Assembly (NCBI GenBank): GCA_963377175.1
Contig: CAUJNA010003239.1
Location: forward strand, 585,596 to 649,595
DNA length: 64,000 nt
Source of the DNA: Effrenium voratum
Taxonomy: Eukaryota > Sar > Dinophyceae > Suessiales > Symbiodiniaceae
Reading direction: 5' to 3'
Of the stretch, positions 7,050-43,935 are shown in pieces; the stretch's first letter is position 1, and every line of letters starts with the position of its first letter. The position numbers were made by a program, and so were the translations under genes. A model generated the notes under the pieces. It was not told where the DNA came from, searched no databases, and worked only from the letters and a program-made list of their open reading frames with translations.

Positions 7050-7091
<42 letters not shown>

Positions 7092-7403
7092 TGACATGAT
7101 AATCATCATGACGCATCCTTAGCATCACCAGCAGTCATCGTGATAATGCGCTTTGACTGGCACACTTCCATAGAACCTGCGCCCATTCTGGAGCGATCGT
7201 TTTCTTTCCTTGGCTTGGTGCATTTTTGTAATAATCTGGTAAGAAAATGCGCCGCTGTAAGTGCCTACAATTCTGCTGCTGCTGGGAGCATGTGCCGTGA
7301 CGTTGCGTTTGCAGTAGAGGCTCGTCGCCGGTCACCCCGCAAGCCAACCAGCTTTCTCGCCGCAAGTCGGGGCCGCGATGGGTCCCCTGTTGCAGCCAGG
7401 GTG

Positions 7404-7442
7404 CGGTGCATTTTTGCTTTGCTTTCGCGTGAAAATGCACCG
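7404..7442. repeat. Second copy of the CGGTGCATTTT hairpin
   Basis: Same arms and almost the same loop as 7006-7044, again directly upstream of GAT triplets. Confidence 0.85.
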
Positions 7443-9147
7443 CTTTGATGATGATGATGATGCTGAGCTGACGTGATAATCATCATGACGCATCCTCAGC
7501 ATTACCAGCAGGCATCATGATACTCATGTCCACGCATCTTCTGCATCTCAAATCGGCTCTAACGGGACTGATGATGATGATCATGATGATGATGATGATG
7601 AACTGACATGATAATCATCATGACGCATCCTCAGCATCACCAGCAGGCATCATGATAATCATGTCCACGCATCTTCTGCATCTCAAATCGGCTCTAACGG
7701 GACTGATGATGATGATCATGATGATGATGATGATGATGAACTGACATGATAATCATCATGACGCATCCTCAGCATCACCAGCAGTCATCATGATAATCAT
7801 GTCCACGCATCTTCTGCATCTCAAATCGGCTCGAACGGGACTGATGATGATGATCATGATGAGCACAGTGATGATCATGATGATGAACTGAGATGGTGGC
7901 ATCATCATCATCATTGTAATCATCATCATCGTCATGATCGTCATCATCATCGTGATCATCGTCGTCATCATCATGGATGATAGCCATCATCGTGCATCCT
8001 CTGCATCACCAGCAGTCATGCTGATAATCATGTCTACGCATCCTCTGCATCTCCAACCAGGTCACAACGATGATGCTGTGATGATGATGAGCGTGTCATC
8101 ATCACCATGATGGTGGTCATTATCGTCATCCATCATCATCATCGTCATCATCATCATCGTCATCATCGTCATCATCATCATCGTCATCATCATGGATGAT
8201 AACCATCATCGTGCGTCCTCTGCATCACCAGCAGTCATGATGATAATCATGACTACGCACCCTCTGCATCTCCAATCGGGTCTAACGCTAAGGACGACAA
8301 CGATCATGATGTGATTTTCTGACAAGTATCGTCATTATCATCATCGTCGTCATCATCATCATCGTCATCATCGTCATCATCATCGTCATCATCATCGTCA
8401 TCATCATGGATGATAACCATTGACCATCATCGTGCATCCTCTGCATCGCCAGCAGTCATGATGAAAATCATGTCTACGCCTCCTGATGATGCGATGACGA
8501 TGAGCATGTCATCATCACCATGATGGTGATCATCATCGGCATCATCATCGTCGTCATCATCACCAGCATCATCCGTCATCGTCCTGGTCGTCATCACCGT
8601 TATCATCATCGATGATACCCATCATCGTGCATCCTCTGCATCACCAACAGTCATGATGATAATCATGTCTACGCATCCTCTGCATCTTGAATCAGGTCAC
8701 AACGATGATGATGTGGTGATGATGAGCATGTCATCATCACCATGGTGGTGGTCAGCATCGTTATCATCATCGTTATCATCATCATCGTCATCATCGTCAT
8801 CATCATCGTCATCATCATCCTCATCATCATGGATGATAACAATCATCGTGCATCCTCTGCATCGCCAGCAGTCATGATGATAATCATGTCTACGCATCCT
8901 CTGCATCTCCAACCAGGTCACAACGATGATGATGTGATGATGATGAGCACGTCATCATCACCATGATGGTGGTCATCAGCGGCATCATCATCATCGTCAT
9001 CATCATCAGCATCACCATCATCATCGTCATCGTCATCATCACCGTTGTCAGCATGGACGATAACCATCATCGTGCATCTTCTGCATCACCAACAGTCATG
9101 ATGATAATCATGACTACGCACCCTCTGCATCTCCAATCGGCTCTAAC

Positions 9148-9701
9148 GTCACCCTTGAAACGTATATAAAAAGATAAGGACGACAACATCATGTCTACGC
9201 ATCCTCTGCATCTCCAATCAGGTCACAACGATGATGATGTGATGATGATGATCGTCCTCGTCATCATCACCGTTATCATCATCGATGATAACCATCATCG
9301 TGCATCCTCTGCATCACCAGCAGTCATGATGATAATCAGGTCTACGCATCCTCTGCATCTCCAATCAGGTCACAACGGTGATGCTGTGATGATGATGAGC
9401 ATGTCATCATCACCATGATGGTGGTCATCATCATCATCAGCATCAGCCTTACCGTTGTCATCATGGACGATAACCATCATCGTGCATCCTCTGCATCCCA
9501 ACAGTCATGATGAGAATCATGTCTACGCACCCTCTGCATCTCCAATGTGATAACCATCATCGTGCATCCTCTGCATCACCAGCAGTCATGATGATAATCA
9601 TGTCTACGCATCCTATACATCTCCAATCAGGTCACAACGATGATGCTGTGATGGTGATGAGCGTGTCATCATCACCATGATGGTGGTCATTATCGTCATC
9701 C

Positions 9702-9735
<34 letters not shown>

Positions 9736-12700
9736 TGTCATCGTCATCATCACTGTTGTCATCATGGACGATAACCATCATCGTGCATCTTCTGCATCAC
9801 CAACAGTCATGATGATAATCATGTCTACGCACCTGCATCTCCAATGTGATAACCATCATCGTGCATCCTCTGCGTCACCAGCAGTCATGATGATAATCAG
9901 GTCTACGCATCCTCTGCATCTCCAATCAGGTCACAACGGTGATGCTGTGATGATGATGAGCATGTCATCATCACCATGATGGTGGTCATCATCATCATCA
10001 GCATCATCCTCACCGTTGTCATCATGGACGATAACCATCATCGTGCATCTTCTGCATCACCAACAGTCATGATGATAATCATGACTACGCACCCTCTGCA
10101 TCTCCAATCGGCTCTAACGTCACCCTTGAAACGTATATAAAAAGATAAGGACGACAACATCATGTCTACGCATCCTCTGCATCTCCAATCAGGTCACAAC
10201 GATGATGATGTGATGATGATGATCGTCCTCGTCATCATCACCGTTATCATCATCGATGATAACCATCATCGTGCATCCTCTGCATCACCAGCAGTCATGA
10301 TGATCAGGTCTACGCATCCTCTGCATCTCCAATCAGGTCACAACGGTGATGCTGTGATGATGATGATCGTCCTCGTCATCATCACCGTTATCATCATCGA
10401 TGATAACCATCATCGTGCATCCTCTGCGTCACCAGCAGTCATGATGATAATCAGGTCTACGCATCCTCTGCATCTCCAATCAGGTCACAACGGTGATGCT
10501 GTGATGATGATGAGCATGTCATCATCACCATGATGGTGGTCATCATCATCATCAGCATCTTCCTCACCGTTGTCATCATGGACGATAACCATCATCGTGC
10601 ATCTTCTGCATCATCATCAGTCATGATGATAATCATGACTACGCACCCTCTGCATCTCCAATCGGCTCTAACGTCACCCTTGAAACGTATATAAAAAGAT
10701 AAGGACGACAACATCATGTCTACGCATCCTCTGCATCTCCAATCAGGTCACAACGATGATGATGTGATGATGATGAGCAAGTCATCATCTCCATGATGGT
10801 CGTCATTATCGTCATCATCATCATCGTCATCATCGTCAGCATCATCCTCGTCATCGTCCTCGTGATCATCACCGTTATCATCATCGATGATAACCATCAT
10901 CGTGCATCCTCTGCATCACCAACAGTCATGATGATAATCATGTCTACGCATCCTCTGCATCTCCAATCGGCTCTAACGCTACCCTTGAAACGTATATCAA
11001 AAAGAAAAGGCGACAACATCATGTCTACGCATCCTCTGCATCTCCAATCAGGTCACAACGATGATGATGTGATGATGATGAGCGTGGCATCATCTCCATG
11101 ATGGTGGTCATTATCGTCATCATCATCATCAGCATCATCCTCGTCGTCGTCATCATCACCGTTGTCATCATGGACGATGACCATCATCGTGCATCCTCTG
11201 CATCACCAACAGTCATGATGAGAATCATGACTACGCACCCTTTGCATCTCCAATCGGCTCTAACGCTACCCTTGAAACGTATATCAAAAAGATACGGCGA
11301 CAACATCATGTCTACGCGGTCACAACGATGATGATGTGATGATGATGAGCATGTCATCATCACCATGATGGTGGTCATTATCGTCATCATTATCATCATC
11401 GTCATCATCGTCATCATCGTCATCATCACCGTTGTCATCATGGACGATAACCATCATCGTGCATCCTCTGCATCGCCAACAGTGATGATGACAATCATGA
11501 CTACGCACCCTCTGCATCTCCAATCGGGTCTAACGCTACCCTTGAAACGTACATAAAAAAGATAAGGGCGACAACGATTATGATGTGATACAATGACAAG
11601 CGTGTCATCATCATCATCGTCATCGTCATCGTCATCATCATCGTTATCATCATCGATGATACCCATCATCGTGCATCCTCTGCATCACCAACAGTCATGA
11701 TGATAATCATGTCTACGCATCCTCTACATCTCCAATCAGGTCACAACGATGATGATGTGATGACGATGGGTATGTCATCATCACCATGATGGTGGTCATC
11801 ATCGTCATCATCATCATCGTCATCATCAGCAGCATCATCATCATCGTCATCGTCATCATCACCGTTGTCATCCTGGACGATAACCATCATCGTGCATCTT
11901 CTGCATCACCAACAGTCATGATGATAATCATGTCTACGCACACTCTGCATCTCCAATCGGCTCTAACGTCACCCTTGAAACGTATATAAAAAAGATATGG
12001 ACGACAACATCATGTCTACGCATCCTCTGCATCTCCAATCAGGTCACAACGATGATGATGCGATGATGATGAGCAAGTCATCATCTCCATGATGCATGAT
12101 GGTGGTCATTATCGTCATCATCATCATCATCGTCATCACCACCATGGATGATAACTATCATCGTGCATCCTCTGCATCACCAGCAGTCATGATGACAATC
12201 ATGACTACGCACCCTCTGCATCTCCAGCCGGGTCTAACGCTACCCTTGAAACCTATGTAAACAAGATAAGGACGACAACCGATTATGATGTGATATACTG
12301 ACAAGCGTGTCATCATCATCATCATCGTCATCATCATCAGCATCATCCTCGTCATCGTCCTCGTCATCATCACCGTTACCATCATCGATGATAACCATCA
12401 TCGTGCATCCTCTGCATCTCCAATCAGGTCACAACGATGATGATGTGGTGATGAGCATGTCATCATCACCCTGATGGTGGTCATTATCGTCATCATCATC
12501 GTCATCATCATGGATGATAACCATCATCGTGCATCCTCTGCATCACCAGCAGTCATGATGATAATCATGTCTACGCATCCTTTACATCTCCAATCAGGTC
12601 ACAACGATGATGATGTGATGACGATGAGCGTGTCATCATCACCATGATTGTGGTCATCATCGTCATCATCACCATCGTCATCGTCATCATGGACGATAAC

Positions 12701-12815
12701 CATCATCGTGCATCTTCTGCATCACCAACAGTCATGATGATAATCATGACTACGCACCCTCTGCATCTCCAATCGGCTCTAACGTCACCCTTGAAACGTA
12801 TATAAAAAGATATGG
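9148..12815. repeat. Recurring CCTTGAAACGTATATAAAA block in the GAT array
   Basis: A block reading CCTTGAAACGTATATAAAAA then GATAAGGACGACAAC occurs about nine times, near 9.15, 10.12, 10.68, 10.98, 11.27, 11.54, 11.97, 12.24 and 12.79 kb. It marks a longer higher-order unit. The TATATAAAA core looks like a TATA box, but I see no gene beside it. Confidence 0.75.
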
Positions 12816-13032
12816 ACGACAACATCATGTCTACGCATCCTCTGCATCTCCAATCAGGTCACAACGATGATGATGTGATGATGATGAGCAAGTCATCATC
12901 TCCATGATGCATGATGGTGGTCATTATCGTCATCATCATCATCATCGTCATCGTCATCATGGACGATAACCATCATCGTGCATCTTCTGCATCACCAACA
13001 GTCATGATGATAATCATGGCTACGCACCCTCT

Positions 13033-31398: not shown

Positions 31399-31514
31399 TG
31401 GGCTAAAGCGTTAACCGTAGGTGGTCGCTTGTCTTGACTCTTAATAAGTATCCACTTGGGCCACCATTTTGGCTCAAGTGGACCTTTTGATCTTTTGTCT
31501 TGTGATTTGAAATC
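31399..31514 (+). repeat. Terminal repeat A1
   Basis: It begins TGGGCTAAAGCG and ends TTGTGATTTGAAATC, 24 bp before the ATG of ORF1. It includes a stem-loop at 31452-31481 (CCACTTGGGCC / GGCTCAAGTGG, loop ACCATTTT). Within it CCATTTTGGCTCAAG (31464-31478) equals the last 15 bases of the dinoflagellate spliced leader. A pyrimidine tract ending in AG (31535-31536) precedes the ATG. Confidence 0.92.
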
Positions 31515-31538
31515 TTTCTTTCCCCTACTCTCAAAGCC

Positions 31539-34500
31539 ATGTACGCCCCCGCCTACGCTGGTGCCGCGGTAGCAGAGGCCAAGGCTAAGGCAAAGGCCTC
31601 CATGGCAAAGTACCTGGCGAGCCTCGTGAAGAGGGAGGAAGAAGGATGGACCGTTTTGGCTGCTGAGGTCCCTCAGGCACCTGACGAGCGTTTCTTCTCC
31701 AGCGCAGATGAGCTGGAGCAGGCCCCCCTTATCCCGGCCAAGCGCAAGGCAGAGGATGAGCCGATGGAAGATGCAGCCCCTGGGGTGGCGCAGGTGCCGA
31801 AGGCCCTGACACGCCCCCCAGGGGCGTTCCTGGAGCTCCTGAACCCGCCGGAGGAGGACGTGCCCATGGAGGAGCTCCTGGCGAAGGACGAGAAGGAGCT
31901 GCCGATGCCCAGGTTCCCCTCGGCTGCAGCCCGCTTGGAGGAGGCCCGCCTGGATGCCCGGGCAGACGCCAAGTGGCAGAGGCGCCGGGAGCTGATGGCG
32001 AAGGTCAAGGAGCAGGCGTCCTCGGAGGAGGATGAGAACCCCGCAGCCCCCCCGCCGGGGGGGAGCGTGTTCACCAAGGCCCTCAAGGTCTCGGAGGGCC
32101 TCTACCAGTTCAGCGACGACCAGATGGCGGGCGACTTCCCTTGCTTCGATGCGACCACGGCCACTAGGCTCCGCCGACTGCAGGCCAAGGACGTCCAGCG
32201 GCTCCTGCGAGGCTTTGAGGGCCCCCAACTCAAGCGGGGGGGCCTGGAGCGCGTTGTGGAGGCCTTCTACATCGCCAAGATGAAGTACGAGCATGAGGCC
32301 CGGCTCAGCACCCCGGGACAGCAGGTTGGCAAGCGCGCTGGCTTGGGGTACGGGGGCCTGGAGAACCGCCCCCTGGGCAAGGTGCCCACATCCTGGATCT
32401 GCCCCTGCTGCACCATGCCCTGGGTGAAGAAGGGCGCCACGAAGTGCATGGGGTGCGGCAAGAAGACGGAGCCCATTGACACGGCGACCAACTCGGCCAC
32501 CCTGGAGATGGCGGGCACGCATTGGCAGTTGACGGTGGATGACCAGGGCAATGCGGTCTGGACGGCGGCCCGGTCCGCGGGTGCCGAAGGCCCTGACACG
32601 GACCGGGCCCGCGACCTCAAGCTCAGTGCCTCGGTGGACGTCAGCGAGCTGGCCACCGACCCGATGGCCTGCGAGAACCCGGACCAGGCCAGCTTCTCGG
32701 ACTTCGTCCCCTCCTCGGTCCGGGCGGTGATCAGGAACTGCCCCATGGAGCTGGACGAGGAGTTTCTGACGGCCCCACCGGGGGAGAGGCCCCCATTGCC
32801 AGGCGACAAGGAAGAGGGCCAGGAATGCAGAGCCTTCCACCCGTCTGCGGTGAAGGCCTTCAAGATTCAGACCCGGCTCAACGCCACCACCATCGCCCAG
32901 GAGGAGGCCAAGAAGGCGGACCAGGTGGAAGCGGTGGAGCGCTCCGCGGCGGTCCTCCACGAACTTCAAGGGGGGGCCATTGACGGAGGAGGTGATGGAG
33001 GCCTGCTCCTGAAGAACCTGGACTTGGACCTCTTCCGTGAGAAGCTGCTGGACAAGCTGGGTGCGGACTGGGGGAGACCCACACCGGAGCTCCTCCAGGC
33101 CCAGACCACTGCGGAGGAGGCGAAAGCGAAACACCAAGCCAGACAGGCGAAGGGCTCCCTCGAAACCAGAATGCTCGAGCCCATCGCGCCTCCCTTCAGT
33201 GCGTGGCCTAGTGAGGTCCGGGTCGCCATTGAGACTGGGGTCTTCGAGCCGACAACGGCATGGAGGGACTTCAGTATGGACGACCTCACATCCCTCACGG
33301 ACTCCTACCTTGAGGCCAAGGCGGTCATCTCGCTGGGTAGGAATCCCTTCCCGGCGGCCCTCCTGTCAGATCTGCCGGACCTGACAGGGATCCCCATGCC
33401 AAAGGCGGGGGGCTCTGGTGCGGCGCGCCCAGGTGCCGAGGGCCCTGACAGGCCGCCCACCATCCCCCCAGCCTCGGGCTCTGGCGTGACGAGCTCAGGT
33501 GCCGAGGGCCCTGACAAGCCGTCCGCCACCCCGGTGGGCCTGGACACCAAGGACCCGGAGGTGCAGCTCTCGGTCCTGCGCTGGATGATGAGCAAACGGG
33601 TCGGAGAGGTCCGTATCTTTGCGGGCCGCTGGGTCCGACGACCGGGCCCGGTACACGTCCCGGATTGGGCGAAAAACCTCACCAAGGTGAATCCGGAGGC
33701 GTTGGAGAAGGGTACGCATCCCAGGAACCACCAGGTGGGTGGACTCCCCTGGGCCAGGTACTCCGTTGATGAGTTGCACCAGCAGGCGAAGGCGGGGGAC
33801 CGACCCTACCCTGGGGACCTGCGATCCATCTTTTGGGCTGCCCCCCACGATCCGGATGAGGACTTCCACTGGACGCGCCAGATCTCGTCCTGGACACTCC
33901 CAGGCCTACTGGGGATGTTCGGGCACAGCTACACCCTGCGCCAGCTCTGGGGAGTCTGGGAGTCTCTGCCACTGCTGCAGGGCCCTAGGCAGCGGGGCCC
34001 GAAAAACAAGGCCCAGAATCAGACCCGCCTGGAGGGCTGGGAGACCCTGAAGGAGGACGCGCGGTGCTTCCTGAAGGAGGAGGGCCTTCCGTTTCCGCAG
34101 ACAGGACCGGAGTGGCGATTGGTCTACCGGGCCATGGGCAAGGTCCTCGCGGCCCGGGCCTTCCTCACGGACACCCCGGCGGAGGTGATGCAGCTCCCGG
34201 TCCAGGACGTGGCGGACTCCAAGGAGCAGATGATCCTGCGGGCGGTATGCGACGAGCGCATCTCGGTCCCGGTGGAGAGCCTCCAGCAGTTCCCAGAGGT
34301 GTACAAGGCCCTCATGGACCGCATTGGAGGCCCGGGGGCCCTGGCGGAGGTGAAGGTCAACTGGCGCTGCAACACGAAGCAGTGGTGGGTCGGCGCAGTC
34401 CCCGACTCAGTGGCCCCCTCCATCTACCGCAAGCTCGGCTACACCAACGACATGATCAAGCTGATGGGCCTGGACCCCTCCGCCCCTGGGTGCCGGACAG

Positions 34501-35075
34501 GTGCCGATGGCCCTGACATCCGCCCCAGGGGAGGCGAGGGCGATGAGGGGATCGTTTACCCCCCCATCACGGCGGACAACGTCCACGGCGTGGTGGGTAA
34601 GGACTACCGGAAGAAGAACTATCCGGTGGAGATGAAGCATGTCTTCTGGGCGCACATGGAGTGTGGCCTGGTCCTGAGCTCCGTCACCCCGTGGGAACTC
34701 ATCCCGAAGACAAAAGGGGAGACCCGGGGGGGCTACATGTGCAAGTATTGTAAGGGGTACTGGCGTGCCGGGGGAGGGGGCACCCGCCTCCTCCAGATCC
34801 GGGCCGGCAAGGCCATCTTGCAGCTGGTGTTGGACGAGCCGCCGGAGGGCCTCTACAACCGCTGGGTGAAGGAGCGGCTGGAGTACTACCGCCGGGTGGA
34901 GCCCTCGGCCCCGTTGCGGGACGTCTCCATCGTGGACCAGAAGGTGCCCAGGTTCAGATTCAGCCAGACCACCCAGACAGGCCACGTCTCCAATGCCATC
35001 TGGGAGCTGATTCTGCGGAATCCGGAGGCTGCTGCGCTCAAGCGCATCGATGACATCGCGAAGGGGGCCGCGTGA
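31539..35075 (+). CDS. ORF1: 1178-aa retroelement protein with CxxC zinc motif
   Basis: The frame is open from ATG 31539, the first ATG after A1, to the stop at 35075. I do not recognise the family. The N-terminus is Ala/Lys- and Glu-rich and looks disordered. A zinc-ribbon-like cluster C288-x2-C291-x11-C303-x2-C306 (CPCC...CMGC) follows. The middle is Ala/Glu-rich and helical, with a likely coiled coil at about residues 455-490. The C-terminal third is Trp-rich and compact, with another pair C1068-x2-C1071. Five copies of the element's hairpin motif lie in frame and read as VPKALT or GAEGPD/GADGPD. By position it could be a gag-like or nucleic-acid-binding protein of the recombinase unit; this is inference. 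There is no protease, RT or RNase H signature. Confidence 0.8.
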   Translation: MYAPAYAGAAVAEAKAKAKASMAKYLASLVKREEEGWTVLAAEVPQAPDERFFSSADELEQAPLIPAKRKAEDEPMEDAAPGVAQVPKALTRPPGAFLELLNPPEEDVPMEELLAKDEKELPMPRFPSAAARLEEARLDARADAKWQRRRELMAKVKEQASSEEDENPAAPPPGGSVFTKALKVSEGLYQFSDDQMAGDFPCFDATTATRLRRLQAKDVQRLLRGFEGPQLKRGGLERVVEAFYIAKMKYEHEARLSTPGQQVGKRAGLGYGGLENRPLGKVPTSWICPCCTMPWVKKGATKCMGCGKKTEPIDTATNSATLEMAGTHWQLTVDDQGNAVWTAARSAGAEGPDTDRARDLKLSASVDVSELATDPMACENPDQASFSDFVPSSVRAVIRNCPMELDEEFLTAPPGERPPLPGDKEEGQECRAFHPSAVKAFKIQTRLNATTIAQEEAKKADQVEAVERSAAVLHELQGGAIDGGGDGGLLLKNLDLDLFREKLLDKLGADWGRPTPELLQAQTTAEEAKAKHQARQAKGSLETRMLEPIAPPFSAWPSEVRVAIETGVFEPTTAWRDFSMDDLTSLTDSYLEAKAVISLGRNPFPAALLSDLPDLTGIPMPKAGGSGAARPGAEGPDRPPTIPPASGSGVTSSGAEGPDKPSATPVGLDTKDPEVQLSVLRWMMSKRVGEVRIFAGRWVRRPGPVHVPDWAKNLTKVNPEALEKGTHPRNHQVGGLPWARYSVDELHQQAKAGDRPYPGDLRSIFWAAPHDPDEDFHWTRQISSWTLPGLLGMFGHSYTLRQLWGVWESLPLLQGPRQRGPKNKAQNQTRLEGWETLKEDARCFLKEEGLPFPQTGPEWRLVYRAMGKVLAARAFLTDTPAEVMQLPVQDVADSKEQMILRAVCDERISVPVESLQQFPEVYKALMDRIGGPGALAEVKVNWRCNTKQWWVGAVPDSVAPSIYRKLGYTNDMIKLMGLDPSAPGCRTGADGPDIRPRGGEGDEGIVYPPITADNVHGVVGKDYRKKNYPVEMKHVFWAHMECGLVLSSVTPWELIPKTKGETRGGYMCKYCKGYWRAGGGGTRLLQIRAGKAILQLVLDEPPEGLYNRWVKERLEYYRRVEPSAPLRDVSIVDQKVPRFRFSQTTQTGHVSNAIWELILRNPEAAALKRIDDIAKGAA

Positions 35076-35181
35076 TGATGCGGGACAACGCCATCTTCCG
35101 GCACACCATCCAGGACCGCGGCCATCCGGAACGGATGCGCAGCGCACCCCGGGGGGGGGACAGCTGCCGAAGGCGCTGATA
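31791..35181 (+). repeat. Hairpin motif copies 1-6 (in and just after ORF1)
   Basis: The motif CAGGTGCCGAGGGCCCTG or a variant starts at 31791, 32578, 33430, 33496, 34498 and 35161. The fold is CAGG-T-GCC-GAG-GGC-CCTG, a 7-bp stem with one bulged T and a 3-base loop. The third loop base varies (A, A, G, G, T, A). At 32578 the second pair is G-T. At 35161 G4-C15 is replaced by C4-G15, preserving pairing. Confidence 0.85.
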
Positions 35182-35189
35182 TCCCCCCC

Positions 35190-35429
35190 CAGGGAACAGC
35201 GCAGGCCCAGACTTGCACCAGGCGAGGAAAATTGGCGCGGCTTGGGCTGATCCGGGGTGCGCCTGGTTCCCCTCTCTTGTTTGGTTTTCCCTTTTCGGGG
35301 CGGCTCCCTGGGTCCCCCTTTTTCCCCCGTTTCCTCCGTTTCGGGGTTGACTTTCCGGGGTTTTGGGGGGCCCCCTGTTGTTTGGTTGGGGTTTGCACCT
35401 AGGGACTAGGCCCCCGGCTCGAGTGGATC
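35190..35429 (+). promoter_or_regulatory. Spacer with pyrimidine tract and possible trans-splice acceptor
   Basis: A C/T/G-rich, A-poor stretch (about 35265-35395) leads to TTTGCACCTAG with AG at 35401-35402, 27 bases before the recombinase ATG. Dinoflagellate mRNAs receive a spliced leader at such acceptors. This would give the second ORF of the unit its own 5' end. The evidence is composition and position only. Confidence 0.4.
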
Positions 35430-37610
35430 ATGATGATGTGGAGGCCCCGCCTCCCTTCCCCGTTTGGGACGACCTTCCTAGGGGCGCCAACCGCGCTCCA
35501 GTTGATTTTGCATGACCTTGGATTTGCACCAGTGCAGTCGGACGGGGAAATCCTCGTGGCGTGCTGCCTGGAATGGGTCAAAAAGGACAAGGTCGCCAAC
35601 CCGGATGCGGTGGTCTTTGACCCGCGGCCGTGGACACGGATCGTGGGGCTGGCACCTGACGGCAACCACGTCCTGGTGGCCTCGGACACCTACAACTTGA
35701 TCCTCGCGAGGATACTCGGCTCCCAACCACAACCGCTGGAGGAGGCGGATTTGGAGCTCGCTACTAAGACCCTGCAACAACTTCTGTTTCGTGCGGCAGG
35801 CGCCAGGCAATCGCACACCTATTCTCCACTGGAAATGGAACAGGCCATCCGGGACCGCGAAGAGTGGATCCTTTCCGGATCGATTGAGGCCCCGGATGTC
35901 CTGGCAGTGGCCAACAAGTGGCGGCATTGGAAACCAGGGAAGATCAAAACCCAATTGCCGACATCTCAGAGAGCGTTGGAACAACACTTGAGGGCCAGGT
36001 GGTTGGAACGCCTCCTGGGATACTTCATCCCCTTCCGGCACCAGATCCCCTACATGCACCAGGTGATGGGGGCCAGGGAGCTGGAGGAGTTTGGCCACCT
36101 CTTTGGTGATGCCCGGTTCCGTACCATCCGGGCACACTGCTTGGCCTATGAGGGCATGCGCAAGATCGGCTTCCAGAACCTCCCCTGGACGGCCGGCGAC
36201 GTCCGGCACCTCATGAACCAGGCGGTCACGTTGGAGGTCACCCCGGCGAAGCTCCAGAAGTGGTGGGGCACTTTAAAGTGGCTCTCCATTAAACTCGGCA
36301 TGCTCAACGTTGACGAACACAAACAACTCCTGGAGAAGCGGAAAGCCATCCAGGAGACGCTGGTGGACACCCAGGTCAAGCCACAGCGCAAGGCGGTGGT
36401 TCCGACCCGGGCAATTGTTTGGGCCCTGGAACAAGGGGCAGAAGGGGCCCCGCCGGAGAACCGGGTCCCGGAGCTGACCAAAGCAGTGGACAGGTACATC
36501 ATGGCGATGGCCAGGTTCAACCTGGCCTGCAGTGCGCGCTTCAACGACGTGCAGCACACCTCGCCGCAGACGGTCAAGTCCACGAGCAACACCCTGGAGC
36601 TGCTGGCCTGGCAAACGAAGACCACGTCGGCAGTGGCCATCAAACGGAACCCGGTCCCGCTCATCGCCCCATTGTTCTCCTTCTCGGGGGCCAGATGGTG
36701 GATCCCCTTGGAGCGGTGGTGGAAGAGATTCAGGGCCTCGGAGGAGTTCCGCGAGATGGACTACCTGATCCCCACGATCAACAAGGACAGGACGGGCTTC
36801 ATCCCCCGCCCAGGAACCCCAGACAGGTCCCTGAGGTGGCTCAAAGACGCCTTGGGGAAGCAGGGCGCGCCAGTCAAGGACGTGGCTGAACTCTCATGGT
36901 ACTCCTTCCGGGTCTTCATGCCGGATTTGGCATTCCAGGCGCACATACCGAGGGACCAGCGCCAGTACCTGGGAAACTGGTTCAAGGAGTCCACGGCGGA
37001 TGTCTACACCCGGGAGAAGCGACACGTGGTGTGCTCCATCTGGGACCAGGTCCTCCAGAAGCTCCCGTCCATGCAACTCGAGGCAGGAAGGGCGGTCCGA
37101 GTCGACCTCGGACATGAGGACTGGGAGGACAAGGTGGAGTGCCCGGCCTCACCGAAGGCCTTGTTCAAGGAAGTCCCGGACACACCGCCCTCGAATGCCA
37201 GCTGGGATGTGATCCCCGCCAACAAGCCGGCCATCACCAAGATGGCTGCGGATGAGGTGCCCCCGCCTCGGGGTCCACTGACGGTGGTAGCCACCACGGC
37301 CCGAAAGGGTCCCACCAAAGCTTACAGCATGCACCTACTGGACACAGATGGAGTCACAGTGGGGTGCGGCTGGAGGCCGGGACCGCTCAAGATTTCGGAG
37401 CTGGCGGAGCAGGACTTCCATGCTGAGCCGGAGGTGTACCTGGGATGCACCAGATGTTTCCGGCATTTCACCTTCCCGAACACGTGGATGGCCGTGGAGC
37501 CCTACGCAGCACAGGACTCCGAGGCCTCCATCTCCCTCTCCTCGGACACCGACGAGAGCGTGGACACTCAGTCGGACAAGGAGGCGGTCGTCCTCCCGGA
37601 AATTGAGTGA
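35430..37610 (+). CDS. Tyrosine recombinase (YR) of the retroelement, 726 aa
   Basis: The ORF encodes a tyrosine recombinase, the enzyme that DIRS/Ngaro-type retrotransposons use in place of an integrase. Visible catalytic signature: R370 in ACSARFNDV, a candidate beta-hairpin lysine K397, R494 in WYSFR, W517 in LGNW and the likely nucleophile Y526 in ADVYTRE. Spacing R494-23-W517-9-Y526 equals that of the classical HxxR...H/W...Y block. The HxxR histidine is replaced by Tyr (Y491). An N-terminal core-binding-like helical part (about residues 190-330) precedes the catalytic domain. The C-terminal 150 residues are Pro- and Asp/Glu-rich and end without a known domain. I used the first ATG of an ATGATG pair. 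The frame is intact. Confidence 0.85.
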   Translation: MMMWRPRLPSPFGTTFLGAPTALQLILHDLGFAPVQSDGEILVACCLEWVKKDKVANPDAVVFDPRPWTRIVGLAPDGNHVLVASDTYNLILARILGSQPQPLEEADLELATKTLQQLLFRAAGARQSHTYSPLEMEQAIRDREEWILSGSIEAPDVLAVANKWRHWKPGKIKTQLPTSQRALEQHLRARWLERLLGYFIPFRHQIPYMHQVMGARELEEFGHLFGDARFRTIRAHCLAYEGMRKIGFQNLPWTAGDVRHLMNQAVTLEVTPAKLQKWWGTLKWLSIKLGMLNVDEHKQLLEKRKAIQETLVDTQVKPQRKAVVPTRAIVWALEQGAEGAPPENRVPELTKAVDRYIMAMARFNLACSARFNDVQHTSPQTVKSTSNTLELLAWQTKTTSAVAIKRNPVPLIAPLFSFSGARWWIPLERWWKRFRASEEFREMDYLIPTINKDRTGFIPRPGTPDRSLRWLKDALGKQGAPVKDVAELSWYSFRVFMPDLAFQAHIPRDQRQYLGNWFKESTADVYTREKRHVVCSIWDQVLQKLPSMQLEAGRAVRVDLGHEDWEDKVECPASPKALFKEVPDTPPSNASWDVIPANKPAITKMAADEVPPPRGPLTVVATTARKGPTKAYSMHLLDTDGVTVGCGWRPGPLKISELAEQDFHAEPEVYLGCTRCFRHFTFPNTWMAVEPYAAQDSEASISLSSDTDESVDTQSDKEAVVLPEIE

Positions 37611-37623
37611 GGGGTGGATAGCG

Positions 37624-37969
37624 CAGGTGCCGAGGGCCCTGACACGCTTCCCCCCATGCCTCAAGGCAAGGAGGCAGGGGGAGAGGGCGCAGGTGCCGAG
37701 GGCCCTGATACGCCCGGCACCCCCCAGAGGCCCAGCCCCGCGGCCAGTGGGGAGCGCAGGTGCCGAAGGCCCTGACACGCAAGGGGGGAGACACAGGTGC
37801 CGAGGGCCCTGAGATGTTCTCACCCCTATTTTGGGGGGCCAGTGCGCCGGGAACCAGGGGACACAGGTGCCGAGGGCCCTGAGACATCCCAGGCAGCGGA
37901 TTGACGGGGTCCGCACCGGGTGGACCGCAGCCGGACCGCTGGACGCACAGGTGCCGAGGGCCCTGAAAT
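37624..37969 (+). repeat. Hairpin motif copies 7-12
   Basis: Six same-strand copies of CAGGTGCCGAGGGCCCTG start at 37624, 37690, 37757, 37794, 37864 and 37948. They fill the 3' untranslated part between the recombinase stop and B1. Only the third loop base varies (A at 37757). Sequence between copies is unrelated. Confidence 0.9.
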
Positions 37970-38067
37970 GCGACAGCGGGACCACACGGCATACGTGGAG
38001 GGAGGACCTCCCCAACGACCAGCTCGTCCGTTGGTATTGGCAGCTGATGCGATCCGTCCGTTGGGGA

Positions 38068-38220
38068 TGGCATCAATTCTACTCCCATCAGCTGCTGAGG
38101 GGAGCTGCCCAGTGGAGCTGGGCAATCCTCCCATTTTGGCACTAATCCTTATGCGGCGTAAAGGATGCACCGTTTCGCGATTAAGGTACCAGTAGCACCA
38201 ATGTGGTGCTTTGAAGAGTC
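38068..38220 (+). repeat. Terminal repeat B1
   Basis: The 153-bp repeat starts TGGCATCAATTCTACTCCC and ends TGCTTTGAAGAGTC. It appears identical to B2. It contains three small stem-loops: TGCCCAG/CTGGGCA, ATCCTT/AAGGAT and AGCACCA-ATG-TGGTGCT (38194-38210). It abuts A2 without a gap. At the junction the short arms GCTTT (38208-38212) and AAAGC (38227-38231) flank a 14-base spacer, as in a minimal recombinase site. Confidence 0.93.
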
Positions 38221-38335
38221 TGGGCTAAAGCGTTAACCGTAGGTGGTCGCTTGTCTTGACTCTTAATAAGTATCCACTTGGGCCACCATTTTGGCTCAAG
38301 TGGACCTTTTGATCTTTGTCTTGTGATTTGAAATC
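38221..38335 (+). repeat. Terminal repeat A2
   Basis: This is A1 minus one T (GATCTTTGTC against GATCTTTTGTC). It carries the same stem-loop (38274-38303) and the same 15-base spliced-leader match (38286-38300). A gag-like ATG follows at 38351, 15 bases downstream, as ORF1 follows A1. Confidence 0.93.
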
Positions 38336-38350
38336 CCGCCCACCCACACC

Positions 38351-39643
38351 ATGGCGGTGACACCAGATGAGTTGGTGGCACCACCACAGGAAGTTCCTGG
38401 AGTGTACACGGACGCAGTGGCTAAGCTCCACAAGACCGCCAGGAACCTCATGGTCCTCAAGGGCATCCCGTGGTTCATCCAAGCGACACTGTCGGATGAG
38501 GGCTTTGTCTCGATGGAGGACCTCGCGACCCGGTGGGACTCGCCCGACCGTGCAAGGGAGACGGCGCCGGGGGAGTTGGGCTTCGCCCCCAACAACCACC
38601 ACTACACGGATGCTGCGGGAACGAGAGGACGCACATGAGGAGGGTGTTGCGGAACACCGCGTGCATCCTCTCGAGCTGGTGGCGAGTTTTGGGCTCGCCC
38701 CGCTCTTCCACCTCATCCTCCCGGTCCCAGCCATCAACCGTGCTCTTCTTAGTGGTCTTCCATGGCCGTTCTCCTGGCTCCGGGAGTGCGCTTACCAGGT
38801 ATTTCATGGGGATGAAACCGATCTCGCCTCCTGCGCAGAGCTTGAACTGGCGCTTCACCAGCTGGTCGCTTCCTTGAAGGGCCAGCTTGGGTTTGGTGAG
38901 CTTGGTCTTCTCCTCCCAAACCCTCTCCAGCTGTCCCCGTTCGCACGAGACCGTGAGATTCGGGGCGGTGTCCCCGGGCGTGTGTGGCCCGGGTCCCGCT
39001 GTTGCATGCGCCCCAACTCCCATGGATCGTTGAGCCGCGTGAACCACCTGGAACATGCGGGCCGCGATCAGCCGGGAGGTCAGTTCGGCCAGTTCGACAT
39101 CACCCGGGAGGACTTGGAGAGCTGGTACGAGTGGTTCTATGGTGAGGACATCGGGGGCCGTTTTCCCCCGCCAGAGGACCACGTCCTGGCAATTGCCGAA
39201 CGCAACGCATGGCGAAAGATTCACGAGAAGATGCATGAGGGCAACACCCTCAGGCGGCCATGCTGTCGGTCAGGCAGGACACATTGTTCTGGACACGTGA
39301 GGTCTATGAGAAGATCAAGACCTTTTCCAGGGGCCGCCCATCAACCAGGACATCCATGGACTACGCACCACCTCAGAAGGGCAAGAACAAGTCCAAGGGC
39401 AAGGGGAAGTCCAAGGGCAAGCCTGGGAACAAAGGGAAGGGTAAGACCCCCCACCCGAACAATCAGGCGTCCCGGGGCGGTAACAAGCAGGCAGCCACCG
39501 ACCCGAAAGGGAACCAGTTCTGTAACAACTGGATGCGCGGGCGCTGCCCGGGCAACTGCGGCCGCACCCACAAGTGCAACCTCATCCTGGCAATGGGCCG
39601 CATCTGCCTGGGGGACCACCTCCCGCAGGACTGCCCGGGTTGA
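38351..39643 (+). pseudogene. Gag-like gene with CCCH zinc motif, broken by an inversion and a frameshift
   Basis: The protein-like signal runs in three pieces. The N-terminal part (38351-38618, +) starts MAVTPDELVAPP and includes GIPWFIQATLSDEGF. The middle part (about 39086 down to 38619) reads on the - strand and contains LTKPKLALQG, VKRQFKLCAGG and EPGERPWKTT. The C-terminal part (39087-39643, +) contains DITREDLESWYEWFYG and LAIAERNAWRKIHEKMHEG. A small deletion near 39255 then shifts frame to a Lys/Gly-rich tail and C-x7-C-x3-C-x3-H (CNNWMRGRCPGNCGRTHKC). Taking the middle part in reverse makes the text continuous at both borders. The position right after A2 and the basic tail with zinc finger fit a gag-like nucleocapsid protein; I infer this from architecture. 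Confidence 0.65.
38619..39086 (-). other. Inverted segment inside the gag-like gene (about 468 bp)
   Basis: The - strand frame through this segment has protein-like composition, while the + strand frames lose it at both edges. GAAC at 38619 and GTTC at 39083-39086 are a 4-base inverted repeat at the breakpoints. Breakpoints are accurate to within a few bases. Confidence 0.65.
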
Positions 39644-39677
39644 CTAGGGGCGCTGACCCCTACCCCCCGGGAGGCCT

Positions 39678-39984
39678 CAGGTGCCGAGGGCCCTGATAAG
39701 GCCCGGGGGGGCGAGAAGGGGCGCAAACGCCCCAAGCAGGCACAGAAGCCCCCTCCTGCAGGTGCCGAGGGCCCTGACACAGGGGGGGGACAGGCCAGGT
39801 GGCGGCCATCCTCGGCGGAACAAGGATGGGGACGGCAGAACCAGCGTGCACAACGCCCTCGCCGTGATCAGAACAGCCACACAACCGGCACAACGGCGGC
39901 GCCTCAGTCCCGAGCCACAGGTGCCGAGGGCCCTGATATGGCGGGGACGGGACGGTTCCCCGCAGGTGCCGAGGGCCCTGACAC
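39678..39984 (+). repeat. Hairpin motif copies 13-16
   Basis: Copies start at 39678, 39759, 39918 and 39963 between the gag-like stop and the polymerase frame. All have the GAG loop and the full stem. The possible start ATG at 39938 lies two bases after copy 15's CCCTGA. Confidence 0.9.
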
Positions 39985-42289
39985 GGGGGGCCGCACCCAG
40001 AAGGCCCGAGTGCCGGATGACTGGCAGCACACCGCAACGCCAAGGGACACTCCCAGGAAGCAGCCGATCCCACTTCCGGCGCCCAACATCATCAAGCATA
40101 ACCCGGTGGTTTTCCACAAGAGCTCGGTGGGGCTGAATGAAGGGGGCCAACGCCTTTCAGCTACCCCCCTGACAAGTCCAACGGAGCCGTCACCGGGATT
40201 GGACATCTTCCCGTGGATGGAGAACATCCCTGAGCGTCTGGTACAGCGGCTGAGATGGACACAGGGCACATCGCCCAAAGTTCCATCCAGTGGGCCCATC
40301 ATTGTCCTGCTCTATGCAGGCAAGGAAGACCCAACTTCCTTGGACAGCTGTCTTCATGCCAACTACCCACACCTTTCCAGCATGGTGGTGGCGGTAGACA
40401 TCCTACGGTCTGGACCAAAAGGGGACCACGATATGCTCCAACCCGAGCTGTATGGAGCTCTTTGCACGGCAGCAAAGCAGGGCCGAGTGGTCTTCATTGG
40501 AGGAGGACCCAACTGCAGGACATGGTCCATCCTGCGCCACATACCAAAACCGGGGGCTCCCACCCCGGTGCGAGGGCGCACTCCAGAGACACTTTGGGGC
40601 CTTCCACACCTGGACCAGGCCGCCCAGACTCAACTTGATGATGACAGCATCCTCATTCTGAGACAGATGTACATCACCAGCCTGGCAAGGGCCTCACGAG
40701 CGGCGGTTTCTCTGCCAGGGCCCAGGTCCTTCCTGGAACACCCGGAGGACCCAGTGGTGAGCAGCTCGCTGCCCAAAGCCAAGGAATGCTCATCCTTCTG
40801 GATCACAGAGGAGGGGCAGCTTTGGATGGAGGAGAACTCCTTGACAGCAATCTCCTTCGACCAGTGCCGCCTGGGCCAGCTGGTCAAGAAGGCCACTACG
40901 CTGGCCACGGATCTCCCGATCCAGGACTGGGATCAAATGCGGTGCACGCATCAGTCACATGTGGGCACCAACGAGTCCTCGACTCTTAGCAGATACCCTT
41001 GGGATATGATGGCAGGCCTGGCCAAAGCCATCGCTGTGTCACTCGCAGCGCCGGGGCACATCCGGATCCCCTCACAATTTCCGGGAAACCCCAAGGAACC
41101 ACCTAAGGGGCGGGGGTCGGACCCCCCGGAAGGCCATTCCCCCCGGGGAAAACGGGGGCCCAGTCAAGGAGGCGGTCCCTCCTCATCACACCAGGGCTCA
41201 AAGCCCGGAGGCAAGAACGCCCCGAAGCCCCGCCTGCACGGGCAGTTCCACCCTGAGGCAGACACCGTAAGCCCTCGTGGAACAATGAACCCAGACTTCC
41301 CATCTCCCATGCCCCCGATGGCCGGAGATGCGGAACAACTGGGGAAGGAGGGACAGGGGGACCAGGTCCTGGACCGCCCCGAATGCCTGCCCGCTTTCAG
41401 GGTCCCACACCTCACTGACCGGGTGGCGATTGTCCAATTGGGTTTCCGCTCACGCCCCCTGAGGGATGGGGGGGGAAAACCTTCCCCAGGGAGGCTCAAC
41501 CCCCCTTTTCGGAGAATTTCCCCATTGGCTACTTTGGGCGCCCTGATCATGACCCTTACCCGGCCCTGGATTGACAAGGTCCGAATGTCCCTGGCATCAG
41601 GTGCCACCACACACCCCTTCCAGGAAGCCGACCTCGAGGAGCTGCGGGCTATCCTAGGACCGAGGCACCTCCATGAACGATGCCCAGGACAACCCTTCCT
41701 CCTGGACTTAGTGTCGCACTTGGCATCCCTTTCAGGTGACCCTGATTGGGAGTTCCCCCTAACACTGAAAGAGGGGGTCCCCTTGGGAGTCTCGGACCCT
41801 ACCTTGACCTCCCCGGGAGTTTGGCCCACTAAGGAGGAGCTTAAGGGAGAAGCCTGGCTGGGGGAAGATCCCCCCCCGCCAGTGGCTCATGATAACTACC
41901 CAACGGCTGAACTCTTTGCCAAGGAAATCGAATCAACCTTTTACGAGGAACGAGCCTTGGACATGGTGGACGGGCCCTTCACTCGCTCCGAGGCGGCAGA
42001 GAGGTGCCGCTGCAAACCGGAGGAACTTTGCCCGGGCCCCCTTGCAGGGATTGATGAGTCGGACAAGATCAGGACGATCTATGATGGCTCAAAAGGGGGA
42101 GCAAACGCACACATCCAGGCTCACACGGAGGAGAAGACCACCGCACCGATGGTTGGAGACTGCCTCCATGCCATCCACTGGCTCAGGACAGCGGCGGACC
42201 ATCCTCATCTACTCCGAGCCCCATCCTCGGGCACTGATCGGGATGCACCAGCCGGTGCAGGGGCAGTCCCCAATTGCCGAGGGCCCTGA
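39938..42289 (+). pseudogene. Polymerase gene, 5' part: methyltransferase-like domain and start of reverse transcriptase
   Basis: This 783-aa open frame contains at residues 120-350 a domain resembling a C5 cytosine methyltransferase fold. It shows VLLYAGKEDPTS, VVAVDI, GGGPNCRTWS with the candidate nucleophile region at C193, SFLEHPEDP (ENV-motif position) and a CRLGQLVKKATTLAT stretch. A Pro/Gly-rich linker follows. From about residue 690 the N-terminal RT fingers begin (DKIRTIYDGSKGGANAHI, then DCLHAIHWLR). The frame ends at TGA 42287-42289, which is part of hairpin copy 17. RT motif A appears only 240 bases later in another frame. The methyltransferase assignment is moderate; the classical PPC and ENV motifs are altered. 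Confidence 0.65.
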
Positions 42290-42434
42290 GAGGGACCCCC
42301 ACAGCACCAGCCTGTTCCAGGTGCCGAGGGCCCTGATAGGGGCAGGCGGATGATGGAGACCTCCGGCGGCCTGGCTCTCCGCGGTCAACACCCTCAGGGA
42401 AGGGGCCACTCCCAGGTGCCGAGGGCCCTGATAG
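42271..42434 (+). repeat. Hairpin motif copies 17-19 interrupting the RT coding region
   Basis: Copies start at 42271, 42318 and 42413. Copy 17 (CAATTGCCGAGGGCCCTG) has lost two outer pairs and supplies the stop codon of the upstream frame. They lie in about 240-330 bp of non-protein-like sequence between RT fingers and motif A. Confidence 0.85.
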
Positions 42435-42519
42435 GAGGGCCCCATTCCCCCCAACCCCCCAGGCACGGAACGCCCTGGGGGGAGCAGGGGGGAACCCCTG
42501 ACGTGGCAGCCGCCGACAC

Positions 42520-43731
42520 AGGGGGAAACCTTCATCATCCTCAAGGCGGACCAAGGCCCACAGGCGCATAAAAGTGCTCCAGAAAGACTGGAAATACCAG
42601 GTGGCCTGCATCCAGAACCGGTGGTGGGTCAATAGAGTGGGCACGTACGGCATGGCCTCGGCACAACTGTACTGGGGAAGAAAGGCATCCTTGGTGCTCA
42701 GACTCTTGTACTACATCTTCCCTCAGGTGGACTGGCACTTAGTTTTTGTGGACGACTACTGCTGGGTCCTCAGATGCAGCAGGGCGGACTGGGACGCCAC
42801 AGCCATCCTGGCCACTCTTCTGGCGCTGGGAGTCCCGCTTTCTTGGAAGAAGACGGCGCTCTCCCCGGTCAATACCTGGTTGGGATTCGTGGTGGACCCA
42901 ATCACGCCCTGTGTGCTGCTGGCTCCAGTCAAGCACGTCATAATCCTGGCCACTCTCAAACGGCTGGCCCAGGGGGACATCTTTACCAGCAAGGAGGTGG
43001 AACAAGCCCTGGGCCGGATTCAATGGGCTACTTCGGCGTGTCCATTGACGAAACCTTTCCTCCAGCCCTTTTGGAGCTGGAAGAAGGCCTGCACCACTTC
43101 GGGCAGGCCACCGAAGCTGGTTCGTGCTCTGGCCATCCTTCTGGGGAAGCTCTTCAACCAGAGGTTCCCACTGGCATCTCCATTTGCTCCCACACTTCCA
43201 TGGACGGGGGCATCTGATGCGGGAGCTGGCAAACAGGCGGACCATGCATGGGTTGGTGGTTGGTGCTCGGACGTGCCCAACCCCGACAAGTCCCGAGTGA
43301 AGTGGTTCCAACACAGAATCACACCGGAGGGCGAGCCGTGGGCCTTCACTACTGGGGACCCGCAGCGGGCGATAGCGGCCTTGGAGCTCTTCGGCCTCCT
43401 CCTTTTGGTGAGGGCTGTTCTGCTTTGTGCAGCCGGCTCGGCTTCTCACACTAGGATTCTGGTTGCTAGTGATAACCAGGGAAACGTTTTCTCCCTGCTT
43501 AACGATTCCACTCGCAGGATGCCCAATGCGGCCATCCTCATGGAAATTGTGTTAACACTGCATGACCACCAGGTCATGTTAGGACCGTCGCATGTGAAGC
43601 GCGACTTTAACACATGGGCGGATGAACTTACTCATCCGGACCCGCAATTTCCGACTGAGAACCGGGTCTTCCCCTCAGTCGAAAGCGAATTGATCAAGCT
43701 GATCTTCGCTACTTTCCTTCCTCACCCATGA
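42520..43731 (+). pseudogene. Polymerase gene, 3' part: reverse transcriptase core and RNase H
   Basis: RT motif A begins in one frame (ETFIILKAD, 42525-42551) and continues in the next (KAHRRIKVLQKDW from 42553), so 1 or 2 bases (mod 3) are out of register at 42552. Then come motif B (VNRVGTYGMASAQLYW), the catalytic FVDDYCW (Asp codons at 42751 and 42754) and a WLGFVVD thumb-border motif. RNase H follows, with GASDAGAG (Asp at 43216), ALELFG (Glu at 43384), ASDNQGN (Asp at 43471) and DFNTWADELTH. The KAD..AHRR and GTYG.ASA.YW motifs are those of DIRS-type RTs. An ATG is lacking; a start drawn at 42574 would be GTG. The stop is at 43729-43731. Confidence 0.82.
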
Positions 43732-43782
43732 TGCCGGGAGGGCATCCGGTGAGGTGGGAGGATTCCTCCCTCGCTGTGGGAG

Positions 43783-43935
43783 TGGCATCAATTCTACTCC
43801 CATCAGCTGCTGAGGGGAGCTGCCCAGTGGAGCTGGGCAATCCTCCCATTTTGGCACTAATCCTTATGCGGCGTAAAGGATGCACCGTTTCGCGATTAAG
43901 GTACCAGTAGCACCAATGTGGTGCTTTGAAGAGTC
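43783..43935 (+). repeat. Terminal repeat B2 (right end of the element)
   Basis: I found no difference from B1 over 153 bp. It begins 51 bases after the polymerase stop and ends GAAGAGTC, after which the interrupted R1 repeat resumes. Confidence 0.93.

Follow-up and report, generated by a model that had tools for sequence, protein, structure and literature searches.

The closest published relative of the element reported here is SymbioDIRS-Dnmt3 (de Mendoza et al. 2018, PMC5890265), which we compared by its description; here and below, comparisons with published elements refer to excerpts of the cited sources. The two have in common a dinoflagellate host, a tyrosine recombinase (YR) in its own open reading frame (ORF), a Pol protein with reverse transcriptase (RT) and RNase H parts, to which a DNMT3-like part, putative here, may be added, and A and B repeats that come in pairs. 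In SymbioDIRS-Dnmt3 two orders of integrase and Pol ORFs occur, and the legend gives its layout as A-coding region-B-A-B (PMC5890265). We analyzed a 64-kb stretch of the Effrenium voratum genome (the window; G000:C3057:585596-649595). In contrast to that legend, the element at positions 31399-43935 of its plus strand has B-A between two coding blocks: A1-[ORF1, tyrosine recombinase]-B1|A2-[gag, DNMT3-like/RT/RNase H]-B2. Since it does not have the A-coding region-B-A-B layout, we place it beside SymbioDIRS-Dnmt3 rather than file it as a member. Its spliced-leader relic, its fixed polarity and its solo RT units find no mention in the excerpted description (PMC5890265).

Split direct repeats of the form A1-B1-A2-B2, with the internal pair between methyltransferase (MT) and YR, are also described for Kangaroo of Volvox and for the nematode form of PAT (PMC4157794). 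Genes on both sides of B1-A2, which the initial annotation of this locus had considered as a new arrangement, are thus not new as such. In Kangaroo and PAT, however, YR follows the internal repeats (inverted in Kangaroo; PMC4157794), whereas in our element the YR block precedes the gag-pol block, as if circularly permuted, and both have one orientation. Their methyltransferase is Dam-like (adenine); for the Pol of our element, the fold of relative P0064 pointed to a DNMT3-like domain instead. Ngaro (PMC8547959) and VIPER/TATE (PMC6681497) share split direct repeats, YR and RT with the element, and the hosts of VIPER/TATE also trans-splice (PMC6681497). In Ngaro and VIPER all genes stand before B1A2, which lies at the 3' end beside B2, whereas our gag-pol lies between A2 and B2; Ngaro is also described as having no MT domain (PMC8547959). 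Isolated AB repeats (Ngaro, PMC8547959) and SIRE, which is A2-B2 (VIPER, PMC6681497), are short relatives of solo units. With DIRS1-like elements (PMC3266345) the element shares YR, RT and the lack of a target duplication, and the published model for them rebuilds the ends from an internal copy, as we propose below for ours; those elements have inverted terminal repeats and internal complementary regions, whereas ours has direct split repeats, a layout other than that of DIRS1. It carries the YR residues and the RT with RNase H of the DIRS order. As far as our searches reach, five things are new: in two families, a B1-A2 joint that follows the YR block and precedes gag-pol; a leader relic that is exact in A; the count of polarity; the RT-only units; and a set of hairpins.

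We consider it likely that this is one 12.5-kb YR retrotransposon, similar in kind to SymbioDIRS-Dnmt3, whose split direct repeats place the B1-A2 joint between the YR block and the gag-pol block, so that each block is framed by A and B; this reading takes in the steps on RNA, trans-splicing, end repair and integration proposed below. The anatomy, copy number, block order, second family and leader relic in A are read directly from genome assembly DNA, and the order and solo counts describe that assembly. The layout proposed in the initial annotation is borne out as follows.

31399..31513, plus strand: A1, left terminal repeat, 115 bp (repeat search; host DNA directly upstream in 28/28 A1-ORF1 ends)
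31464..31478, plus strand: exact spliced-leader relic (DinoRL) CCATTTTGGCTCAAG in A1, 65 bp into the repeat (exact match)
31539..35075, plus strand: ORF1, 1178 aa, beside YR in every copy read; its homologue is fused to YR in P0052
35430..37610, plus strand: tyrosine recombinase ORF, 726 aa, with residues R370 K397 Y491 R494 W517 Y526 and a fold match to Cre/XerH/Flp
38062..38220, plus strand: B1, internal copy of the right repeat, 159 bp (repeat search, copy alignment)
38221..38334, plus strand: A2, internal copy of the left repeat, 114 bp, abutting B1 (repeat search, copy alignment)
38286..38300, plus strand: exact DinoRL in A2 (exact match)
38351..39643, plus strand: gag-like region with a CCCH knuckle, broken in the window copy; relative P0074 reads through
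38613..39082, minus strand: gag segment of 470 bp, inverted in the window copy (comparison with other copies)
39938..42289, plus strand: first part of Pol, with a DNMT3-like domain and the N-terminal part of RT, frame broken in the window copy (fold of relative P0064)
42574..43731, plus strand: second part of Pol, RT with FVDD and RNase H (ORF; fold of relative)
43777..43935, plus strand: B2, right terminal repeat (repeat search; host DNA next in 28/29 ends)

In the window copy A1 and A2 differ by one T, the single base noted earlier. B1 and B2, which had seemed identical, are both 159 bp long but differ at bases 5 and 6. The copy is damaged by the 470-bp inversion in gag and by the broken pol frame. 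The inverted segment is 100% identical to the uninverted segment of another copy (C3151), a clean inversion. Small inversions were also seen in other copies, of ~190 bp in the YR of L015 and of ~790 bp in the RT/RNase H of L021. As to inverted terminal repeats of the DIRS1 type, the stretch from 30.0 to 45.5 kb has a single inverted pair of at least 30 bases, and this pair, an AT palindrome, lies beyond the element.

The YR protein shows the R-K-H/Y-R-H/W-Y residues of tyrosine recombinases and a fold match to Cre/XerH/Flp at E ~1e-3. RT and RNase H were assigned from the predicted fold of P0064, a relative whose sequence aligns to the ORF in the window. The DNMT3-like domain of Pol is putative, seen by the fold of that relative and not by Pfam PF00145, and its window position comes from the P0064 alignment. 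ORF1 has no Pfam match at E<=1, and Pfam searches of the element proteins gave only sub-threshold matches (such as Cas2, UreF and Myofilin), which we take as chance. No relative was found in the viral contigs scanned with YR P0001 and Pol P0064. The Symbiodinium microadriaticum protein P0052 has the ORF1 homologue fused to YR; relatives such as this one and the spliced-leader relic both point to a dinoflagellate host. Four database proteins (P0005, P0019, P0020, P0053) join YR to Pol pieces, which fits the YR-Pol order; they may be gene-model artefacts and are not used as evidence. The gene model P0022 combines the N-terminal half of the recombinase with a PF00145 DNA methylase and may reflect an artefact or a neighbouring DNMT element.

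We wondered whether the order of the window copy is general, a count that the initial annotation had proposed. Genome searches covered the window's own assembly (1.156 Gb, one of a set of 97,973 genomes). Each search for an end type or junction took the ~40 best-scoring matches of 586-869 candidates, and the counts thus describe best-scoring, young copies. The B-A junction is found in at least 40 places, on many contigs and with distinct host flanks. Ten loci picked among the 40 best B-A matches were each read in two stretches: in 10/10 of these large loci YR stands before B1-A2 and gag after it, and 8/10 have the left-end A (one of them, on C316, rearranged) and 8/10 the right-end B2. Solo and permuted units were sought through four end types, A1-ORF1, RNase H-B2, A2-gag and YR-B1. 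All 26 YR-B1 matches read have A next (25 the usual A, one a variant), and 12 more from the other lists bring this to 38/38 assessable ends; the remaining 2 of the 40 stop before the end of B. No solo YR unit is therefore present among the 38. Among the A2-gag matches, 23/40 are loci already known from the B-A search; of the remaining 17, 15 show an upstream B, so that 38/40 are preceded by B and two are not. At the outer ends, 20 of the 40 A1-ORF1 matches were read upstream and none is preceded by B; with eight from the first loci, host DNA lies upstream in 28/28. Likewise, A follows in none of the 20/40 RNase H-B2 matches read downstream, and with the first loci host DNA follows in 28/29, the sole exception being C316 (B2, then a partial B, A and gag). 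Comparison of coordinates revealed no reversed order on shared contigs, save a chimera on C779 that lies 13 kb away and an opposite-strand gag match at C1207. One candidate for an RT-RT tandem, C3583 (its B has the B2-type deletion), was rejected: a YR tail was found in the 500 bases upstream, and it is an ordinary copy. The counts agree with one of the two options first put forward, a single element whose genes flank B1-A2. The outcome that the initial annotation named as refuting a bipartite pair, both gene blocks in this order in every copy, is thereby nearly reached.

Searches with relatives revealed a second family in the same genome, with ~48-52% identity to P0025. The YR-B1|A2 junction is present in 13/14 second-family loci read. 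On C313 the recombinase is followed by B (179 bp), which abuts A (120 bp), and then gag; the 12/12 further loci whose match reaches query residue 741 or beyond have the same B|A junction. Two loci look, from their sequence, like RT-only units: C488 has A, a shortened gag, Pol and B, with no YR match in the 10 kb upstream, and C780, read at its left end only, has no B or YR match in the 1.5 kb upstream.

The dinoflagellate spliced leader is DCCGTAGCCATTTTGGCTCAAG (PMC7245778), and the relic of it left by a second round of trans-splicing, DinoRL, is CCATTTTGGCTCAAG (PMC12014239). Within the 64-kb window this 15-mer has two exact matches, one per A repeat. It stands in 65/65 distinct A repeats read: 48 of the window-element family, one of the C224 subfamily and 16 of the second family. 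Excluded from this count are a chance match to the start word at C488:151171 and a truncated read, L114, from the locus already counted for C224. Counted from the B|A junction, the relic starts after 65 bases in the window-element family (62 in L098), after 69 in C224 and after 68 in the second family (66 in C194). When the relic is masked, the A repeats of the two families reach a score that 26/500 shuffles also reach, so little else in them is alike, and the bases directly beside the relic vary. We also considered the relic as mere half of a hairpin and rejected this: by eye, the stem holds its 3' half in the window-element family and its 5' half in the second family, and thus no single stem covers the whole word. 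A literature search that left aside subscription journals and preprints gave no report of a spliced-leader relic in DIRS-type repeats.

The relic may be a working part of A. A trans-spliced leader would form the 5' end of the RNA, its 15-nt match in A2 would be the landing pad for transfer of the cDNA end, and the ~65 outer bases of A together with the B end would be rebuilt from B1A2. Such a landing pad would explain the exactness of the relic, its near-constant distance to the element end and the need for a B-A joint inside the element; we advance it tentatively, as a possibility below even odds. It is also possible, and to our mind equally doubtful, that the relic is an inert scar, merely carried along since an ancestral copy was made from trans-spliced mRNA. 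DinoRL scars are indeed common in dinoflagellate genes (PMC12014239, PMC11453091). Against a scar speaks that the relic is exact in every A repeat read of two families, at a nearly constant distance from the end and with variable bases right beside it, while outside the relic the A repeats of the two families resemble each other little more than shuffled sequence does.

How might such an element be copied? We propose that a full-length RNA would run from inside A1 to inside B2. Two trans-spliced mRNAs would arise, one for ORF1-YR that begins at A1 and one for gag-pol that begins at A2; each A with its relic would mark a 5' end and each B a 3' end, and B1-A2 would thus separate the two. Host trans-splicing would in this way mature both blocks, and the internal B1A2 would restore the ends missing from the processed RNA: reverse transcription would yield a cDNA without the outermost A1 and B2, and B1A2 would template their restoring and joining. 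YR would then integrate the joined B2-A1 end, without target duplication, at weakly preferred sites.

In aligned copies, all differences between A1 and A2 fall at positions 93-102 of 115, save for one at 20 in the A1 of C3351, and those between B1 and B2 at 5-6 and 112 of 159, save for two (~23 and ~82) in the B2 of C3351. The outer stretches of A and B are thus near-invariant while the inner parts keep differences of their own, a pattern that rebuilding of the outer parts from B1A2 would be expected to leave. No target duplication was detected in the seven copies with both flanks read, the longest common end word being at most 2 bp (by eye). The host flanks are biased at +10 (T, 22/28), +7 (A, 19/28), +1 (T or A, 25/28) and -4 (A, 17/29), among 80 positions tested, of which +21 also gave p<0.001. 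The 3' flank opens with TGG, like A, in 5/28 cases (expected 0.5). If a double-stranded circle had two equal B-A joints and either could integrate, half of the copies should begin with gag. The ends disagree with this: 0/28 ORF1-bearing left ends have B upstream, and only 2/40 gag starts abut host DNA. No copy was seen that starts with gag and ends with YR, and the internal B1-A2, though nearly identical, therefore seems unused as an integration site. We infer that the B2-A1 joint differs in structure from the internal joint when YR acts.

Several points weigh against the single-element reading and its mechanism. C69 is a complete solo RT unit (host, A, gag, MT, RT, RNase H, B, host), the C779 chimera consists of A with 266 bp of gag leader, ~100 bp and then ORF1, and C316 is rearranged on its left and carries RT units in tandem; the blocks sometimes part or recombine. 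This may happen via chromosomal recombination between A repeats or via template switching. In the second family, C3108 keeps A, ORF1, YR, B1, Pol and B2 but has lost A2 and most of gag. YR and RT are not recognized by Pfam and were assigned by motif and fold, the copies sampled are top scorers only, and the steps on RNA, trans-splicing, end repair and integration are deduced from DNA. The C3351 exceptions fall outside the usual variable sites of A1 and B2, and since the copies are young, with few differences between their A and B repeats, the argument for end regeneration rests on few sites. In C316, the stretch L023 (C316:15431-15533) reads B2 and next a B that sets in at base 57 with TGGGC, the word that also opens A, before A-gag follows; it looks as if the recombinase had taken TGGGC inside B for a false A end.

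The initial annotation had also raised a bipartite (segmented) retrotransposon, whose YR unit and RT unit would be separate, complement each other and be joined only sometimes. The A and B that each block has of its own, the host-bounded unit at C69, the second-family RT units without YR upstream (C488, C780) and the RT-unit tandem of C316 are what such a pair would leave. Yet no solo YR exists among the 38 assessable YR-B1 ends, B lies upstream of 38/40 A2-gag starts, and the order is YR-first throughout the coordinate comparison, save for the C1207 match and the C779 chimera. With both blocks in the same order in nearly every copy, and only a few solo RT units and one tandem left over, we hold a bipartite pair to be improbable. 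An assembly artefact or a chance nesting of two elements, for which repeat richness is the one argument, is scarcely credible: the junction recurs at least 40 times, across many contigs and next to distinct host sequences, and the second family has it too. The solo RT units might instead be true offspring of an A2-to-B2 mRNA, mobilized in trans by full elements, and hence RT-only satellites rather than deletion products. The ends of C69, A and B, are intact with host DNA on both sides, of the four Pol loci examined in the second family two, C488 and C780, show an RT-only left end, and no solo YR occurs although the B1-B2 pair (159 bp) is longer than the A1-A2 pair (115 bp). However, 1/40 versus 0/38 is no significant difference, chromosomal A1-A2 recombination yields the same product, C488 is without most of gag and C780 is known from its left end only. 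We regard satellites as rather unlikely, though with a real chance, and retain the single element.

The element also contains 19 copies of GGTGCCGAGGGCCCTGA (at most 3 mismatches), all inside it, on the coding strand and with copy-specific complementary arms.

31793..42431, plus strand: span of the 19 hairpins, with the common core GGTGCCGAGGGCCCTGA and copy-specific stems (motif and stem comparison)
31793, 32580, 33432, 33498, 34500, 35163, 37626, 37692, 37759, 37796, plus strand: GGTGCCGAGGGCCCTGA copies 1-10
37866, 37950, 39680, 39761, 39920, 39965, 42273, 42320, 42415, plus strand: GGTGCCGAGGGCCCTGA copies 11-19

The mean stem score of the hairpins is 8.8 versus 4.3 ± 0.6 when the right arms are swapped, and 0/2000 swaps reach 8.8. 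Their positions, in ORFs and in untranslated parts, are largely kept in 10 other copies. Rfam found nothing over 31.0-44.5 kb, and a literature search, again leaving aside subscription journals and preprints, gave no match for the set. Elsewhere in the window, ~7068-13018 is a dense block of direct repeats whose GC skew is strong (about -0.25); it is probably a satellite array.

The rebuilding of the ends and the integration joint of split-repeat YR retrotransposons have so far been known from models only. Because genes flank the internal joint of this element on both sides, each insertion records the joint that was used, and it is always the same one in the copies read. With this record one can test the model of a circular intermediate whose two joints would be equal. 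The near-constant distance of the relic in two families would tie retrotransposition to host trans-splicing in dinoflagellates; if the relic is indeed a landing pad, the universal tag of host RNAs would double as the strand-transfer sequence of the element.

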